From an uncultured Robiginitomaculum sp. (GTDB lineage Bacteria > Pseudomonadota > Alphaproteobacteria > Caulobacterales > Maricaulaceae), in the NCBI GenBank assembly GCA_938015875.1, contig CALLXE010000025.1:1-64000 (forward strand): a DNA stretch of 64,000 bases, in the 5' to 3' direction. Shown here one piece after another: positions 2,310 to 24,224 of this stretch (the stretch's first letter is position 1; every line of letters starts with the position of its first letter). The notes below the pieces were generated by a model, which worked only from the letters and a program-made list of their open reading frames with translations, did no database searches and was not told where the DNA came from. Both the position numbers and the translations under genes were made by a program.

Positions 2310-2774
2310 TTAAATTTCGATTTCTTCGTCGTCGTCATCATCGTCACCGGTCGGCGGCAATGTGTCATCATCGTCATCGTCAGCAAGAGCCGCATCTTCG
2401 TCGTCGTCATCGTCGGTAGAGAAACCGTCCATGTCCGGCTTGTTATTGCCGCTGTCATCATCGTCGTCTTCGTCACCGCCGGAGATCAGGGCTGCATCGT
2501 CGCCGTCAAGCTCAAGCTCTTTAGCCGCAGCATCCTCGTCCTCGTCCTCGTCTTCATCCTCGTCATCGTCTTCGGAGGCCTTGGCTTTTTTCTTCGCGTC
2601 TTCTGCATCGTCGTCTTCGTAATCAGGCACGTCCGCAATAATGGTCGGCGCGACGGTTTGCGGATCGTAAGTATTGCCGCATTTAGGACAGACCGCAGGA
2701 TTCTTCGTCAGGTCGTAAAACTTGGACTCACATTCAGGACAGGTGCGTTTTTCACCCAAATCGACTTTAGCCAC
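2310..2774 (-). CDS. TIGR02300 family FYDLN-acid protein
   Basis: This 154-residue protein belongs to the alphaproteobacterial FYDLN_acid/TIGR02300 family, whose function is unknown. The N-terminus has a zinc-ribbon pattern, CPEC at residues 12-15 and CPKC at 29-32, around FYDL at 19-22 (canonical FYDLN, here FYDLT). The rest is extremely acidic, with runs of Asp and Glu encoded by GAC/GAT/GAA repeats, so that the opposite strand reads as a serine-rich false frame. I chose the GTG at 2774 (MAKVDLGEKRTC) because AGAGGA at 2781-2786 is six bases upstream and this matches family N-termini; the ATG at 2780 touches that site. It is divergent from aroA. Confidence 0.88.
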   Translation of the reverse strand: MAKVDLGEKRTCPECESKFYDLTKNPAVCPKCGNTYDPQTVAPTIIADVPDYEDDDAEDAKKKAKASEDDDEDEDEDEDEDAAAKELELDGDDAALISGGDEDDDDDSGNNKPDMDGFSTDDDDDEDAALADDDDDDTLPPTGDDDDDDEEIEI

Positions 2775-5825: not shown

Positions 5826-8504
<2,679 letters not shown>

Positions 8505-18345: not shown

Positions 18346-19497
18346 GTGAAGATAATGATCGTGACAGATGCCTGGGAGCCGCAAATGAACGGCGTGGTCA
18401 GAACCCTGATGCGCACAGTTGCGGCCTGCCGCAACGCCGGACACGAAGTTGAAGTCATTGCGCCGTCTGACGGTTATTTCACCCTGCCCCTGCCGACCTA
18501 TCCGGATATACGGCTCGCCCCGTTTGCTTTTAAAGATGTTGAGCGGCGCATGATCAGGTTTGGCCCGCAGGCCATTCATATTGCCACAGAAGGCCCGCTC
18601 GGTCAGGCTGCGCGGGCCATGTGCATAAAATGGAAACTGCCCTTCACCACCAGTTACCACACGAAATTTCCGGAATATATCAAAGCCCGGTTCCCATTTA
18701 TTCCCCTGTCATGGCCTTACAAATTTGTGCGCAACTTTCACAATAGCGGCGGGCGCACTATGGTCACGACGGAATCGATGAAAGACTTTTTACTGCCGCA
18801 GGGCTTTACCAATTTAGACGTCTGGGCGCGCGGCGTAGATCTGGCGCAATTTCATCCCGGACAAAAAAATAATCCGGACGATGTCTATGACGGGTTGCCC
18901 CGCCCCGTCTTTGTCAATGTCGGCCGGGTTGCCGTCGAGAAAAACATTGAAGCCTTTTTAGATTTGGACCTGCCCGGCAGTAAAGTCGTTGTCGGCGACG
19001 GTCCGCAGCTTGACGCGCTTCGGAAAAAATATCCGGATATTCGCTTTACCGGCTCAAAGCTCGGGCAGGATTTGGCGCGGCATTTTGCAGACGCCGACGT
19101 CTTTGTTTTTCCCAGCCGCACCGACACATTCGGACTCGTGAATATTGAGGCAATGGCCTGCGGAACACCGGTCGCGGCCTATCCCGTCTCGGGGCCGGTT
19201 GACATTATACCGGGGTCAAACGCCGGCATATGTGATGAGGATTTGCGCGCGGCATGCCTTGCGGCGCTTAACCTGTCACCGGATGATTGCGTAGCCCATG
19301 CCCGTAATTATTCGTGGGAAGCCGTATCAGACATTTTCATGTCCTATCTGACCCCGCAGTATAAGCCGACAGCGCGTAAGCGGTGGCGACGGATCCGGCG
19401 CCTGACTCGGCTGGCAAGCAGCCCGTTTCATTTCTTAAAACGTAATTTTCGCCGCGCCCGGCGCATCGTGATGGGCAAGCCCGTTCCGAAAGAGTAA
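18346..19497 (+). CDS. GT4 family glycosyltransferase, alpha-mannosyltransferase-like
   Basis: The 383-residue protein is a GT-B fold, family 4 glycosyltransferase. The N-terminal domain starts VTDAWEPQMNGVVRTL and has the TSYHTKFPEY segment. The C-terminal donor domain has VNVGRVAVEKNIEAFL and FPSRTDTFGLVNIEAMACGTPV, the E-x7-E-like region in the form seen in GDP-mannose-dependent mannosyltransferases of the MgtA/PimB type. Donor and acceptor are inferred only. The start is GTG 18346, with AGGAG at 18332-18336. The C-terminus is very basic, which suggests attachment to the membrane surface. It likely works in glycolipid or polysaccharide synthesis. Confidence 0.88.
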   Translation: MKIMIVTDAWEPQMNGVVRTLMRTVAACRNAGHEVEVIAPSDGYFTLPLPTYPDIRLAPFAFKDVERRMIRFGPQAIHIATEGPLGQAARAMCIKWKLPFTTSYHTKFPEYIKARFPFIPLSWPYKFVRNFHNSGGRTMVTTESMKDFLLPQGFTNLDVWARGVDLAQFHPGQKNNPDDVYDGLPRPVFVNVGRVAVEKNIEAFLDLDLPGSKVVVGDGPQLDALRKKYPDIRFTGSKLGQDLARHFADADVFVFPSRTDTFGLVNIEAMACGTPVAAYPVSGPVDIIPGSNAGICDEDLRAACLAALNLSPDDCVAHARNYSWEAVSDIFMSYLTPQYKPTARKRWRRIRRLTRLASSPFHFLKRNFRRARRIVMGKPVPKE

Positions 19498-19512: not shown

Positions 19513-19546
19513 AAAAAAGCCCGCCTTTGAAAAATCAAAGGCGGGC
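19513..19546 (-). terminator. Terminator of the porin gene
   Basis: A 12-bp perfect stem GCCCGCCTTTGA/TCAAAGGCGGGC with a four-base loop is followed on the minus strand by six T (A-run 19513-19518). It sits between the converging glycosyltransferase and porin genes; on the plus strand no T-run follows. Confidence 0.88.
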
Positions 19547-19602
19547 CGGGGTCAGTTTACCGGACTTAGAGTTCAGAGCGCTCCAATCTCCATAAACCCC
19601 TT

Positions 19603-20799
19603 TTAAAAATCAAATCCGAGGCGGGCGTTAATACCGCTTGCACTCTCGGCATAGCCGCCATCGGCCTCAGCATTGAAATAATTGATCCGCAAACGCGTGT
19701 TTTTAGTCGGAAGCCAATCAGCCCCCAGAACAAAGGTATCAAGTTTACCCTCGTATCCGTTATCCTGAAGATCGAGCGTATCGTAACGGGCAATGAGTGA
19801 TACGGCCCCCATACCGCCTTCACCAAGCGGGCTGTCGACTTTCATGCGGTCATAAGTTCCGCCGGAAGACTTATAGCTGCGCCGACCGCCAAAAATAATG
19901 CCGGCTTCGATATATCCGCCGCCAAAATTTGCATCGGGATTAGCATCGACGCCTGTGACGTCGATAATCGCATATTCCGCAGCAGCCCAGAGATTGTCTT
20001 TCAAAATCAAACCCTCAACCGCGAAAAGATTATCTTTATCGCCAAAGCTCTCATCAACCCCGGTAACAATACGGCCTGCGTTAATAATGCGGCCGCTCGG
20101 AAGAACGCCTTGCGTGTTATCAGATGCCAGAGAATGAGCAAATGGGCGTTGGCGATAGCGGAAATTACTGTCTCCGGAATCGCGGTAACGCCAAGATGTG
20201 CCCAAATGGACGAGCATGTCACCGGATTTAATCGGCGTAAATGTTGCCCGGGCGGCGGCCGCGTTTCCGTTCGTGCTGCCGTCATTATTGATGTTTTCAC
20301 CGTAAATACCGGCATTCAGCGTATAATTATCACCGGCCGTACCGATAGACAGGCCAACCCGGCGATCAAGTCCGAAAGCATCTGTAAAACCGCCGCGCTC
20401 TATCGTCGTGATAAAGCGCGAACTGGCTTCTTCTTCGAGGGAGTTATGGGTTTTAAAGTGGCCGACCTTAATTTTAAACGGTTGATTTTCCGGAGAAAAC
20501 TGAAGATAGCCATCTGTGATTTCCAGGTCTGAGCCCGTCGTGTGATTAAACTCGAATTTATAACTGACAGCGCTTCCGAATTTGCCTTTTGCAAACAAGC
20601 GGGCGCGGCGAACCTCTGAAGACGTCACGCTGAGGCTTTCCATGCTGCCGGTGATATTATCGATGTCTGTGACAGCATAATCCATCATGAAGCGGCCGCC
20701 AATCTCAAGGGTCTTGTCTTGAGCGTTTGCGCCGGATGAAAAAACCAAAGAAGCAGCTAATGTTGAAACGGCAAAACCGCTCTTAAATAAAAATGTCAT
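19603..20799 (-). CDS. OprO/OprP-type (phosphate-selective) porin
   Basis: The 398-residue protein is an outer membrane beta-barrel of the phosphate-selective porin O/P family. It has a signal peptide MTFLFKSGFAVSTLAASLVF with cleavage near ANA-QD. It then shows LEIGGRFMMDYA, VRRARLFAKGKFGSAVSYKFEFN and a C-terminal strand ending in Phe (ARLGFDF), the usual barrel-assembly signal. OprP-type porins take up phosphate or polyphosphate, and some take other anions. Specificity is supported by four tandem Pho-box units at 20877-20920, 78-121 bases upstream of the start. ATG 20799 was chosen because it begins the signal peptide; the open frame continues to 21039 without support. Confidence 0.9.
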   Translation of the reverse strand: MTFLFKSGFAVSTLAASLVFSSGANAQDKTLEIGGRFMMDYAVTDIDNITGSMESLSVTSSEVRRARLFAKGKFGSAVSYKFEFNHTTGSDLEITDGYLQFSPENQPFKIKVGHFKTHNSLEEEASSRFITTIERGGFTDAFGLDRRVGLSIGTAGDNYTLNAGIYGENINNDGSTNGNAAAARATFTPIKSGDMLVHLGTSWRYRDSGDSNFRYRQRPFAHSLASDNTQGVLPSGRIINAGRIVTGVDESFGDKDNLFAVEGLILKDNLWAAAEYAIIDVTGVDANPDANFGGGYIEAGIIFGGRRSYKSSGGTYDRMKVDSPLGEGGMGAVSLIARYDTLDLQDNGYEGKLDTFVLGADWLPTKNTRLRINYFNAEADGGYAESASGINARLGFDF

Positions 20800-20876
20800 C
20801 GTTCGAACCTTTAAAATACGATGGAGCCTTGCGGCCGTAAAACGCTTTTGCGTATGATTAGCGACCTTTGGCCACG

Positions 20877-20920
20877 TAATTTGACAGTTTTGAACACTTT
20901 TTGTGACAGTTTTATGAAAA
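20877..20920 (-). promoter_or_regulatory. Tandem Pho box (four 11-bp units)
   Basis: Read on the minus strand, four adjacent 11-mers occur: TTTTCATAAAA, CTGTCACAAAA, AGTGTTCAAAA and CTGTCAAATTA. This is the 7+4 architecture of PhoB sites (consensus unit CTGTCAT plus an A/T-rich four-mer). The second and fourth units match CTGTCA exactly. It lies directly upstream of the phosphate-type porin, so the porin is probably induced by PhoB at low phosphate. Confidence 0.85.
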
Positions 20921-21053
20921 CTCTTATCCTTGCCTTGCCAAGAGGCATTATGAGCCGCCTGCCGGATTGAACACTGTGAAAAAGCGATAATTTCCCGATG
21001 ACTCGGCGTGCTACAAGACTTGCCATGCGCCCTCGCCATTGTTAGAGCGCAGC

Positions 21054-21692
21054 ATGTTTGATTATTCGCTTTTCATATCCGCCTTTGCGATTTTATTCGT
21101 CATTATCGACCCGCCCGGTTGCGCGCCTATTTTTGCAACCCTGACAAAGGGCACGAGCCGCAAACATCAAAAGACAATGGCGTTTAAATCCGTCGGTGTC
21201 GCCGCCGTTATCTTACTCGGCTTTGCCTTTTTTGGCGAGTGGGTGTTCTCTAAGCTGGGGATCAGCCTGGATGCCTTGCGGGTCGCCGGCGGCATAATGC
21301 TGTTTATTATCGGCCTGAACATGGTGTTTGAAAAGCGCACAGAACACCGCGAGGACCGCGCGGAAGAAGCCCTGCACGAAGCAACAGATCCGGAAGATAT
21401 TTCAGTTTTCCCTATGGGCATCCCCATGATCGCCGGGCCGGGAACGATGGCTTCGCTTTTGCTGCTGATGTCACGGGCGGATGGCATCACCGAACAACTC
21501 ACGGTCATCGCGGCGCTTATCGCTGTTTTGTCGGTCGCCTTGGTAACGTTTTTAATCGCCGGGCCGCTGATGAAGGTTTTAGGAAAAAGCTTCACAGATA
21601 TTTTAACCCGCGTGCTTGGTGTTTTACTGGCAACGCTCGCGGCGCAATTTGTTCTGGACGGTATTATTAACGCCTTTACCGCCGCGCTTTAA
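21054..21692 (+). CDS. MarC family integral membrane protein
   Basis: The 212-residue protein is a six-helix MarC/UPF0056 family membrane protein, found widely in proteobacteria. Its function is unsettled; the early link of E. coli MarC to antibiotic resistance was not upheld. Family marks are FAILFVIIDPPGCAPIFATLT near the N-terminus, AGGIMLFIIGLNM and VFPMGIPMIAGPGTMA. The start ATG 21054 is preferred over TTG 21039 on family N-termini. It is divergent from the porin and shares the intergenic region holding the Pho box. Confidence 0.88.
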   Translation: MFDYSLFISAFAILFVIIDPPGCAPIFATLTKGTSRKHQKTMAFKSVGVAAVILLGFAFFGEWVFSKLGISLDALRVAGGIMLFIIGLNMVFEKRTEHREDRAEEALHEATDPEDISVFPMGIPMIAGPGTMASLLLLMSRADGITEQLTVIAALIAVLSVALVTFLIAGPLMKVLGKSFTDILTRVLGVLLATLAAQFVLDGIINAFTAAL

Positions 21693-21753: not shown

Positions 21754-22047
21754 ATGTCTATCGCGTTTCTAAATCTGCTGCTCAGCATTATATCCCTGCT
21801 GACCTTCATTGTCTTTGCATGGGTGATTGTCAGCTGGCTGCTCGCGTTTAATATTATTAATACCCGCAATCAAGTCGTCTATCAGATTGTCAAAACGCTG
21901 GACGCGATTATTAATCCGCTCGTTGCGCCCATTCGCAAAATCATTCCAAGCTTTGGCGGGCTGGATTTCTCTCCGATTATTTTGCTGTTTGCGCTGTATT
22001 TTTTGCAAGATTGGATCATGCAAATCCGCGTCGGCAATATTCTTTAG
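21754..22047 (+). CDS. YggT family membrane protein
   Basis: The 97-residue protein is a YggT family membrane protein with two hydrophobic segments (about 4-28 and 66-90). Between them is the family motif INPLVAPIRKIIPSFGGLDFSPII. YggT proteins are linked to membrane and division-related functions without a fixed mechanism. GGGAG at 21744-21748 supports ATG 21754. Its last four bases overlap the end of the convergent CBM9/DUF5916 gene. Confidence 0.9.
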   Translation: MSIAFLNLLLSIISLLTFIVFAWVIVSWLLAFNIINTRNQVVYQIVKTLDAIINPLVAPIRKIIPSFGGLDFSPIILLFALYFLQDWIMQIRVGNIL

Positions 22048-24224
22048 AACCGGTAGGTATTGCCGATCCGCACCGACAGCCCGGATTGACGGGAGTTTAA
22101 GTCGTCAAAGTCTGCGGTCCCGCTTTGCGAGTAAGTCACCAGTAATTCTGTTTGCGGCCGAATGGCCCAACGGAACCGGCCGAAATATTCGAAATCTTCG
22201 GAAATATTGTCATATTGCACTTGGTTGACGATCTGCATATCCGGCGTGATATTAATATTGGCATCTACAGACAACACTTTGATCTGCACGCTTCCTGCGG
22301 GCAGGGAGATATCGTTTTGGCGATAGCCGGCCTTAAAGTTTAAATGTTTTGTCGGTCGGTAATTGGCGGTCACATCCAAAAGCGTGCGGTCCCCGTCATA
22401 CCAACCCCCGATCTCAAGCTCAGCCCGAAGTCCCCAATTTCGTGAACTGCCGGTATCGAAAACGGCTGACTTGCGCAGCCATGTGTAATTGCCTGCGGGG
22501 ATATTGACGGTGCCGGCCACTGTGAACGGAGCGTCGAGCCGATCGCTGTCTTGGAACAAAAAACCAAGCGCGCTTGAGCCGTCGCGCCAAACGCGTTGTA
22601 TGTATGTGCCGATCTGCGCGCTTTCCTGTGCAGCGCTTAAGTCTGTCACAAGCGTGCCGAAAAAGCCCAGCGTGTCATATAGCGTATCGCTGCCGCTGCT
22701 ATGCCGATTACGAAAGCGCAATTGACCGTTGTAATCGCGGATACCGCTTCGGTTGGTAAAACCGAGGGCGGGATCATAACCTTCGCCGAGATGCTTTGCG
22801 CGCACAAACCAATTAAGCTTGTCATTGGGATAGGCGATTTCCACCCCGTAACTTTCCCCGTCGCGGGCCGCATCCGTAGATTCAGATTTTAAATAATATC
22901 CGTCAGCGGCGAAATTCGCGCCACTTTGAAACTGTGTTTTATACTGCCCATCGAGGCCCCAAACCGTATTGTCAGTCTCCCCTGTCGGGTCTCCGTCCGT
23001 AACAATCATGCCAATCCGTGACCCGCCTGCAATATCGGCGGACAAACGCGCAACAGAGAGCACTTGACGATCTAAATCCCCGGCGCGTCCGGTTTGCGCA
23101 GACAGCGCGCCAATATTAATCGGCCCGACTGATCCCGACAGTTTTGCGCCGCCTTCAATATCAACCGGCACGCCCCCGACAATTCCGATACGGCGCGAGA
23201 AAAAAGGTAGGCCATTCACGGCGCGAAATGGCCGCCCGCCAAACGCAAACAGGTTTTGATCCTGCAGGAAAAACTCGCGGGTTTCCGGGAGGAAAAGTGA
23301 AAACCGGTCCGTGTTCACCTGCCGCGGATCAAGGGGCATATCAGAAAAATCCGTATTCAGCGTCACGCTGCCGGTCAGGGCCGGCGTGAAACGGTAATAA
23401 AGATTGACCGCAGGCTCCAGACTTTTATCGGTTTGACCGCTGCCCCAATCGTGAAGGGTCTCGGCCGTTAAAAAACCTTCGATTTCGATGCCCGCTCCGG
23501 CGCGGGTGTTTTTAATACCCGTCAGGCGGCCAATGCCCGAGACATCATAATCCGGCAAGTCTTGGGTGATTTGCGACCAGGCAATGATTTCGTTTTTACG
23601 CGCGATATTGCGGCGAATTTGAAAGCCCCAACCCTCCTCGTTGTTATCATAACCAAAGCTTCGAAACGGTATGGCGATCTCTGCTGTCCAGCCCTCATCT
23701 GTGATGCGGGTTTTGGCATTCCAAATCGTATCCCATTCAGGGGCAAATTTTCGATTGTTTTCCGTTAAGCCGTCGCGGCGGGCTCCGGTGGGGCTGACCA
23801 TAAAAAAGTGAGAATCGCGCGCTGTATTATAACTGTCGAGAAATATCTGAATATAGTCGTCTTTTTCAACGTCCACATCACGGGTCATGACATTAGCCGT
23901 TATATCCTGCGGACTGCTGTCATAGAGCGTTGCGCCGATATAAAGATGTGTATCCGTATAAACAATTCGCACGTCCGTTCGGTCGGACGGCATCGCGCCT
24001 TCGACCGGCTGTATTTGAAAGAACTGATCCGTAACCGGGGCCTTGCGCCAGACAGCGTCCGACAAATCGCCGTCCATGTCAGGAGCGCTTTCCGCTGCAA
24101 TCTTCAGGGCCTTTATTTGCGGCGCTGTTTCGGCCACAGCCCCGGGCGCGCTCATCAGCGCGCACAGAGCGGCTCCGCACTGCAACCCCCACGGATGCAT
24201 TAATTTAAAAAGCGATGACCCCAC
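22044..24224 (-). CDS. CBM9-domain / DUF5916 outer membrane protein
   Basis: The 726-residue exported protein has a CBM9-like carbohydrate-binding domain at about residues 40-250, marked by DGDLSDAVWRKAP, TDTHLYIGATLYDSSP, DDYIQIFLDSYNTARDSHFF and GWTAEIAIPFRSFGY. A long DUF5916 beta-barrel region follows, ending in a C-terminal aromatic residue (IGNTYRF). Related proteins sit in the outer membrane and are suspected to bind glycans; no enzyme activity is known. GTG 24224 is chosen because AAGGA lies six bases upstream; ATG 24200 has no such site. It overlaps yggT at the 3' end. Confidence 0.85.
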   Translation of the reverse strand: MGSSLFKLMHPWGLQCGAALCALMSAPGAVAETAPQIKALKIAAESAPDMDGDLSDAVWRKAPVTDQFFQIQPVEGAMPSDRTDVRIVYTDTHLYIGATLYDSSPQDITANVMTRDVDVEKDDYIQIFLDSYNTARDSHFFMVSPTGARRDGLTENNRKFAPEWDTIWNAKTRITDEGWTAEIAIPFRSFGYDNNEEGWGFQIRRNIARKNEIIAWSQITQDLPDYDVSGIGRLTGIKNTRAGAGIEIEGFLTAETLHDWGSGQTDKSLEPAVNLYYRFTPALTGSVTLNTDFSDMPLDPRQVNTDRFSLFLPETREFFLQDQNLFAFGGRPFRAVNGLPFFSRRIGIVGGVPVDIEGGAKLSGSVGPINIGALSAQTGRAGDLDRQVLSVARLSADIAGGSRIGMIVTDGDPTGETDNTVWGLDGQYKTQFQSGANFAADGYYLKSESTDAARDGESYGVEIAYPNDKLNWFVRAKHLGEGYDPALGFTNRSGIRDYNGQLRFRNRHSSGSDTLYDTLGFFGTLVTDLSAAQESAQIGTYIQRVWRDGSSALGFLFQDSDRLDAPFTVAGTVNIPAGNYTWLRKSAVFDTGSSRNWGLRAELEIGGWYDGDRTLLDVTANYRPTKHLNFKAGYRQNDISLPAGSVQIKVLSVDANINITPDMQIVNQVQYDNISEDFEYFGRFRWAIRPQTELLVTYSQSGTADFDDLNSRQSGLSVRIGNTYRF

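Follow-up and report, generated by a model that had tools for sequence, protein, structure and literature searches.

A predicted PhoB-dependent promoter in front of a Porin_O_P porin gene of an uncultured Robiginitomaculum sp.

Introduction

Phosphate limitation raises OprP of Pseudomonas aeruginosa 82-fold and OprO 87-fold (PMC9769906), and a CTGTCAT motif is described together with head-to-tail binding to direct repeats (PMC4415409). The name ‘phosphate-selective porin O and P’ is often given to a gene from its sequence family alone. Here, we analyse a window of 64,000 nt of DNA from an uncultured Robiginitomaculum sp., in which a Porin_O_P gene lies behind a putative Pho site. The window comes from contig C25; the assembly totals 1.83 Mb in 68 contigs, with an estimated completeness of 67.7%.

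Methods

Pho units are 11 bp long, and were scored with two matrices: a textbook PhoB matrix, A/T-rich at 4 of its 11 positions, and a second matrix trained solely on 11 units from four pst promoters (L050–L053). Model R1 covers 60 positions, uses sequence only, and was built from the porin promoters of 11 relatives with the window excluded. The wider scan with R1 took in 40 sources at E<=10.

The porin was searched for in 61 genomes including its own, 31 of which had a match at E<=0.001. For 34 porin loci, the strand of the porin was scored for a Pho site no more than 300 nt from a start that was picked by rule; L023, whose contig begins at the gene, and the matches that have no locus (the second copies in G014 and G020, and G051) were left out. 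The 14 of these loci that are not linked to pstS include the window and the truncated locus L048.

Results

Position and units of the Pho site

The porin, the Pho site with its phases and the flanking genes of the window are:

18346–19497, plus strand: glycosyltransferase-like gene, convergent with the porin (named by sight; tblastn synteny)
19518–19547, minus strand: terminator-like hairpin of 13 pairs with a T run, directly 3′ of the porin (consensus match only)
19603–20799, minus strand: Porin_O_P porin of 398 aa (PF07396; signal peptide by sight)
20865–20870, minus strand: putative −10-like position, CAAAGG (from alignment A1)
20877–20920, minus strand: Pho site (sequence read, two matrices; R1 match at 20863–20919)
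20910–20920, minus strand: unit 1, good
20899–20909, minus strand: unit 2, good
20888–20898, minus strand: phase 3, degenerate
20877–20887, minus strand: unit 4, good
21054–21689, plus strand: divergent gene for a MarC-family membrane protein (PF01914, 6.6e-54), from which the Pho site faces away

Read along the minus strand from 20920 to 20877, as the reverse complement of the window, the site is TTTTCATAAAA CTGTCACAAAA AGTGTTCAAAA CTGTCAAATTA. A sequence-only reading of this DNA had placed it on the coding strand of the porin, 78–121 bases before the start, and the ATG at 20799–20797 agrees with that position. The porin frame is open through the Pho site to a further ATG at 21039 (19603–21039, minus strand, 478 aa); relatives and the signal peptide (by sight) favour the start at 20799.

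The same reading had proposed four in-phase 11 bp units that fit the PhoB dimer-pair site twice over. The phase and the spacing hold, as do units 1, 2 and 4, but the quality of the third unit does not: units 1 to 4 score 9.0, 11.9, −7.5 and 11.2 with the textbook matrix, and 11.9, 17.4, −5.3 and 7.4 with the pst-trained matrix. Because phase 3 is negative with both, the site has three good units and a degenerate third phase, rather than four complete units (two boxes), which the class of PhoB-dependent promoters does not require. The two or more adjacent 11 bp direct-repeat units by which such a promoter is recognized, each resembling CTGTCAT followed by 4 bp rich in A/T, are present as units 1–2, which at 20.9 bits form the top pair within the window with the textbook matrix, and reach 29.3 with the pst-trained matrix.

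This 1-2-x-4 architecture also describes the relatives. When unit scores were averaged over 12 promoters, those of the window and of the 11 relatives in alignment A1, the first unit had +12.0, offsets 11, 22 and 33 had +14.8, −2.6 and +6.6, respectively, and all other offsets tried between −22 and +66 had negative means; as the 12 were picked for their good sites, the means describe the architecture and not its frequency. A gap of 11 nt separates the CTGTCA of unit 4 from the −10-like position. The hexamer that we chose there reads CATAGG in six of the 11 relatives of the alignment; in the window it is the weaker CAAAGG.

The Pho site scores far above chance expectation. Its 4-unit sum of 24.6 is the highest on either strand of the window, where the runner-up has 12.0. 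None of 300 Markov sequences derived from the 254 nt intergenic region reached this value (maximum 10.4), and the highest 4-unit sum among 1496 segments of 300 nt, which sampled the window plus four further genomic stretches, was 13.5. Summed as 1-2-x-4 with the pst-trained matrix, the site scores 36.7, against 10.3 for the runner-up of the window. Matches to two units by themselves were dropped as evidence, because a Pho-like pair at 7589–7610 (plus strand), within a coding sequence that by sight resembles gyrB, reaches 18.7 bits. This pair is a handy decoy for PhoB scans.

The pst operon of the same genome

In the own assembly, model R1 gave two matches in total at E<=10, with 150 of 660 first-look candidates scored and rough E-values. 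The stronger falls on the porin Pho site (C25:20863–20919, 40.9 bits, E 3.2e-10). The other, at 18.8 bits and E 0.0028, falls on the promoter of the genome’s own pst operon, which lies on another contig:

C5:22211–27807: pstS-pstC-pstA-pstB-phoU-phoB operon
C5:27880–27912: promoter units of this operon

The two promoters, which alone in the assembly share recognition by R1, differ in their layout: units 1-2-3 of the pst promoter are adjacent (CTGTCATAAAA CTGTCATGCAA TTGTTACAAAA), whereas the porin promoter reads 1-2-x-4. The sequence CTGTCATNNNNCTGTCAT occurs without mismatch at a single place in the assembly, the pst promoter. PhoB, encoded inside this operon, scores 303.5 bits with TIGR02154 (curated cut-off 296.2), and PhoU, PstB, PstA and PstC each exceed their curated cut-offs; PhoR (264.2 vs 334.2) and PstS (147.9 vs 206.6 for TIGR02136) stay under theirs.

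In the wider scan, R1 retrieved the pst promoters of G004 (L051, 26.9 bits), G031 (L052, 19.6) and, weakly, G011 (L053, 11.3). It matches 4 of the 16 pstS loci that are not behind a porin, and had no match at the other 12, all from other families of the order. With the window and the training rows set aside, 22 porin loci were scanned; five of them have an R1 site upstream of the porin (L026, L033, L038, L039 and L048), and in L020 and L027 R1 matches at other positions. The L027 match (2596–2616, plus strand, 13 bits) lies between porin and pstS, and may be a second Pho site for pstS alone. Given its misses beyond the close group, R1 is specific to that group and says little about others.

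Pho sites in front of orthologous porins

An absence of such repeats upstream of orthologues had been named as an outcome that would speak against the proposal, but comparable sites were found at most of the loci scored. Relative to a null drawn from the own genome only, whose base composition differs from that of the other genomes, the 2-unit or 4-unit score fell in the top 1% at 18 of 20 pstS-linked and 9 of 14 unlinked loci, and the 4-unit score exceeded every null segment at 11 of the 20 and 7 of the 14. The loci short of the 1% level were L018 (1.3%) and L041 in the linked set, and L032, L036, L037, L042 and L043 in the unlinked set; L042 and L043 also lack the OprP ladder, with 2–3 of its 12 residues.

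Class-level porins gave a different picture. When the 360 nt up to a point 60 nt ahead of the match were scanned in 18 of the 19 rows besides the own gene (G099:C1 was left out), two exceeded every null segment, five were in the top 1% and 13 were outside it. Since most class-level Porin_O_P genes are without the site, the family as such is not Pho-regulated.

The porin protein

The porin matches PF07396 at 2.9e-40 (139.1 bits, curated cut-off 20.9) and is the only gene of this family found in the assembly. Its close relatives are Hellea sp. and Caulobacterales entries, and phmmer retrieved OprP (2o4v, 3.6e-14) and OprO (4rjw, 4e-12). Of the 12 residues that we take to make up the OprP arginine/lysine ladder with the central R133, all 12 are kept in a MAFFT alignment and 11 in a larger alignment, where R226 is unsure; R133 is among those kept.

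We take Y62/Y114 to mark OprP and F62/D114 to mark OprO, together with K121. Positions 62, 114 and 121 are R/K/E in the window porin, against Y/Y/K in OprP and F/D/K in OprO, so the protein is a Porin_O_P member that is by this mark neither OprP nor OprO, and both identities were rejected. R/K/E was in turn rejected as a hallmark of the window porin: among the 50 aligned rows other than OprP and OprO, the window included, 33 have it. As the combination is common in alphaproteobacterial Porin_O_P proteins, it does not mark a special substrate for this one.

OprP and OprO type porins are trimeric barrels of 16 strands. For the window porin, an AlphaFold2 model built from five sequences was mostly strands and too weak for use (mean pLDDT 53.9, pTM 0.58). 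In one relative (L034, G017:C1:1182424–1183149), the parts matching residues 1–156 and 312–398 are fused in one frame of 246 aa; about 155 residues are absent inside the barrel, and the Pho site and the pstS neighbour are retained.

Gene neighbourhood of the porin

Directly downstream of the porin and on the same strand, a pstS match was present in 17 of the 30 other genomes with a porin match (G005, G006, G007, G008, G012, G014, G017, G018, G020, G021, G022, G023, G025, G028, G030, G035 and G043), with 57 to 321 nt separating the two matches. The remaining 13 have the porin without a pstS match in that place (G009, G010, G011, G016, G026, G027, G031, G032, G037, G041, G044, G051 and G060). 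In G022, a tandem pair of pstS matches lies behind the porin (L054, G022:C90:2251–4535). Among five named Hellea and Caulobacterales loci, the porin is directly upstream of pstS in three (L044, L045 and L047, all porin-pstS-pstC-pstA-pstB); L046 has no pstS behind the porin, and the contig of L048 ends within the porin. In L046 (2824–7161 and 9347–13161), the porin faces a pstCAB-phoU-phoB operon of the window genome’s type and is preceded by glycerol-3-phosphate-dehydrogenase-like and glycerol-kinase-like genes (by sight). Across the class, the porin was found at E<=1e-20 in 13 of 141 other genomes, and in five of these 13 (G150, G169, G177, G189 and G197) pstS lies within 1.4 kb of it, in varying orders.

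The window has no pstS behind the porin, whose end is about 100 nt from the glycosyltransferase-like gene, and yet the Pho site is retained. The terminator-like hairpin suggests that the predicted porin transcript comprises one gene; the region has three such consensus matches, where shuffles give an expectation of 2.7. A homologue of the glycosyltransferase-like gene follows pstS on the opposite strand in six relatives (G008, G012, G014, G025, G028 and G030), and pstC follows pstS in others, close Hellea loci included. In G031 (L019), the porin and this homologue stand end to end, and the 725 nt that separate their matches contain no pstS match. Both there and in the window, MarC and YGGT genes lie on the porin’s other side. 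Adjoining the YGGT gene of the window is a gene for a large protein (22047–24224, minus strand) with a CBM9-like domain and a sub-cut-off match to DUF5916.

When the own genome was searched with the porin-linked PstS of Hellea, the pst operon’s PstS was retrieved (51%), and a single further match was weak (E 2e-4). As the assembly is 68% complete, a second PstS may be encoded elsewhere in the genome. In a PstS tree, the own protein falls into one group with those of G004, G031 and G011 (100/100), separate from the porin-linked PstS (linked/unlinked split 83/87); the branches of L056 and L072 are very long, probably through wrong reading frames, and the tree is therefore no more than a hint. 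From the relatives, we infer that pstS, or pstSCAB, was lost from behind the window porin rather than never having been there.

Discussion

The promoter, the gene neighbourhood of relatives and the ladder residues agree in assigning the window porin to phosphate uptake. The Pho site is very probably the PhoB-dependent promoter of a one-gene phosphate/anion porin, and we hold with equally high confidence that PhoB would control this gene. The tie to phosphate starvation that the sequence-only reading had drawn is supported by the sites before orthologues, by a model that was built without the window and retrieves both this site and the own pst promoter, and by pstS as neighbour. The last of these is an independent link, since in many relatives the porin is the immediate neighbour of pstS.

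These observations fit a model in which scarcity of phosphate leads to phosphorylation of PhoB, whose gene belongs to the pst-phoU-phoB operon of another contig. Phosphorylated PhoB would occupy units 1–2 as a head-to-tail dimer; its binding to phases 3–4, where unit 4 lies beside the presumed −10 region, would be weaker. RNA polymerase recruited by PhoB would then transcribe the porin alone, and the porin, once in the outer membrane, would pass phosphate or related anions to PstS. In many relatives, porin and pstS stand in line behind one Pho site; in the window, uptake would fall to the separate pst operon. As this operon has a Pho site of its own, co-regulation in the window would rest on two promoters.

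That the repeat is A+T-rich by chance, or is bound by a different response regulator, can be given almost no weight. The matrix is A/T-rich at 4 of 11 positions and the coding decoy scores 18.7 as a 2-unit site, but none of the 300 intergenic Markov sequences attains the score of the Pho site, which moreover recurs before many orthologues, and the porin-derived model R1 retrieves the pst promoter. We also consider it most improbable that the site serves the divergent MarC gene, or both genes. The two genes do share the 254 nt intergenic region that holds the site, and the MarC ATG is about 134 nt away from it; however, Pho units are directional and these face the porin, and strong sites precede porins with no MarC match in the upstream 1.5 kb (L015, L016, L017, L022, L024 and L025), whilst the two other loci with a divergent MarC have a weak site (L019, 4-unit score 11.9) or none (L036). 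Direction and synteny thus led us to reject MarC as the target.

Greater weight belongs to the possibility, still the less probable one, that the Pho site is real and the porin serves mainly for polyphosphate, pyrophosphate, phosphonate or organic phosphate esters instead of orthophosphate. R/K/E is unlike the residues of OprP and OprO, positions 62 and 114 vary between the OprO entries 4rjw and 4rjx, and the L046 porin adjoins genes resembling those for glycerol kinase and glycerol-3-phosphate dehydrogenase. Against this, the porin adjoins a gene of the phosphate-binding-protein family, pstS, in 20 loci, the ladder residues and R133 are kept, and R/K/E is widespread in the class. Because the constriction residues differ from those of both OprP and OprO, the case for regulation by phosphate is stronger than that for any one substrate. 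Phosphate nevertheless remains the likely substrate from context, since a phosphate-starvation switch, and relatives in which the porin stands beside phosphate-uptake genes, would suit a channel that admits phosphate when it is scarce.

A fuller account of the lineage can be offered tentatively, as one that we think rather doubtful: an ancestral porin-pstS unit may have been broken by loss of pstS, perhaps with pstCAB, the separate pst operon now serving uptake; the 1-2-x-4 promoter may have been retained by selection; and R/K/E may give an anion preference unlike that of OprP or OprO. The window would then be a natural case where co-regulation seems to outlast an operon. A Pho site combined with a pstS neighbour offers a simple rule for choosing true phosphate porins in marine Alphaproteobacteria. 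Within titles and abstract openings, we found no Pho-regulated Porin_O_P porin beside pstS in Alphaproteobacteria, which is no proof of absence.

Systems of this type are already known. In Xanthomonas, a porin presumably lies beside pst genes. The E. coli pstS promoter, located upstream of pstS in E. coli 504239 and present in 5372 of 5426 E. coli genomes (coverage >=80%), has, like the porin promoter, four 11 bp phases and a presumed −10 that starts 11 nt past the last CTGTCA. Its phases are all positive with the pst-trained matrix (17.3, 6.6, 6.6 and 4.6), whereas phase 3 of the porin promoter is negative, and the presumed −10 hexamer, which we take to be TATTTT in E. coli, reads CAAAGG in the window. 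OprP and OprO belong to the same Pfam family as the window porin and share with it homology over most of the length, the ladder and R133, although they are distant in sequence and differ from it at positions 62, 114 and 121. The genes oprO and oprP adjoin each other (PMC9769906), whereas the porin is a single gene in the window and pstS-linked in relatives. Given the known induction of OprP and OprO and the known binding to CTGTCAT direct repeats, it is well supported that the window porin is a further instance of this system.
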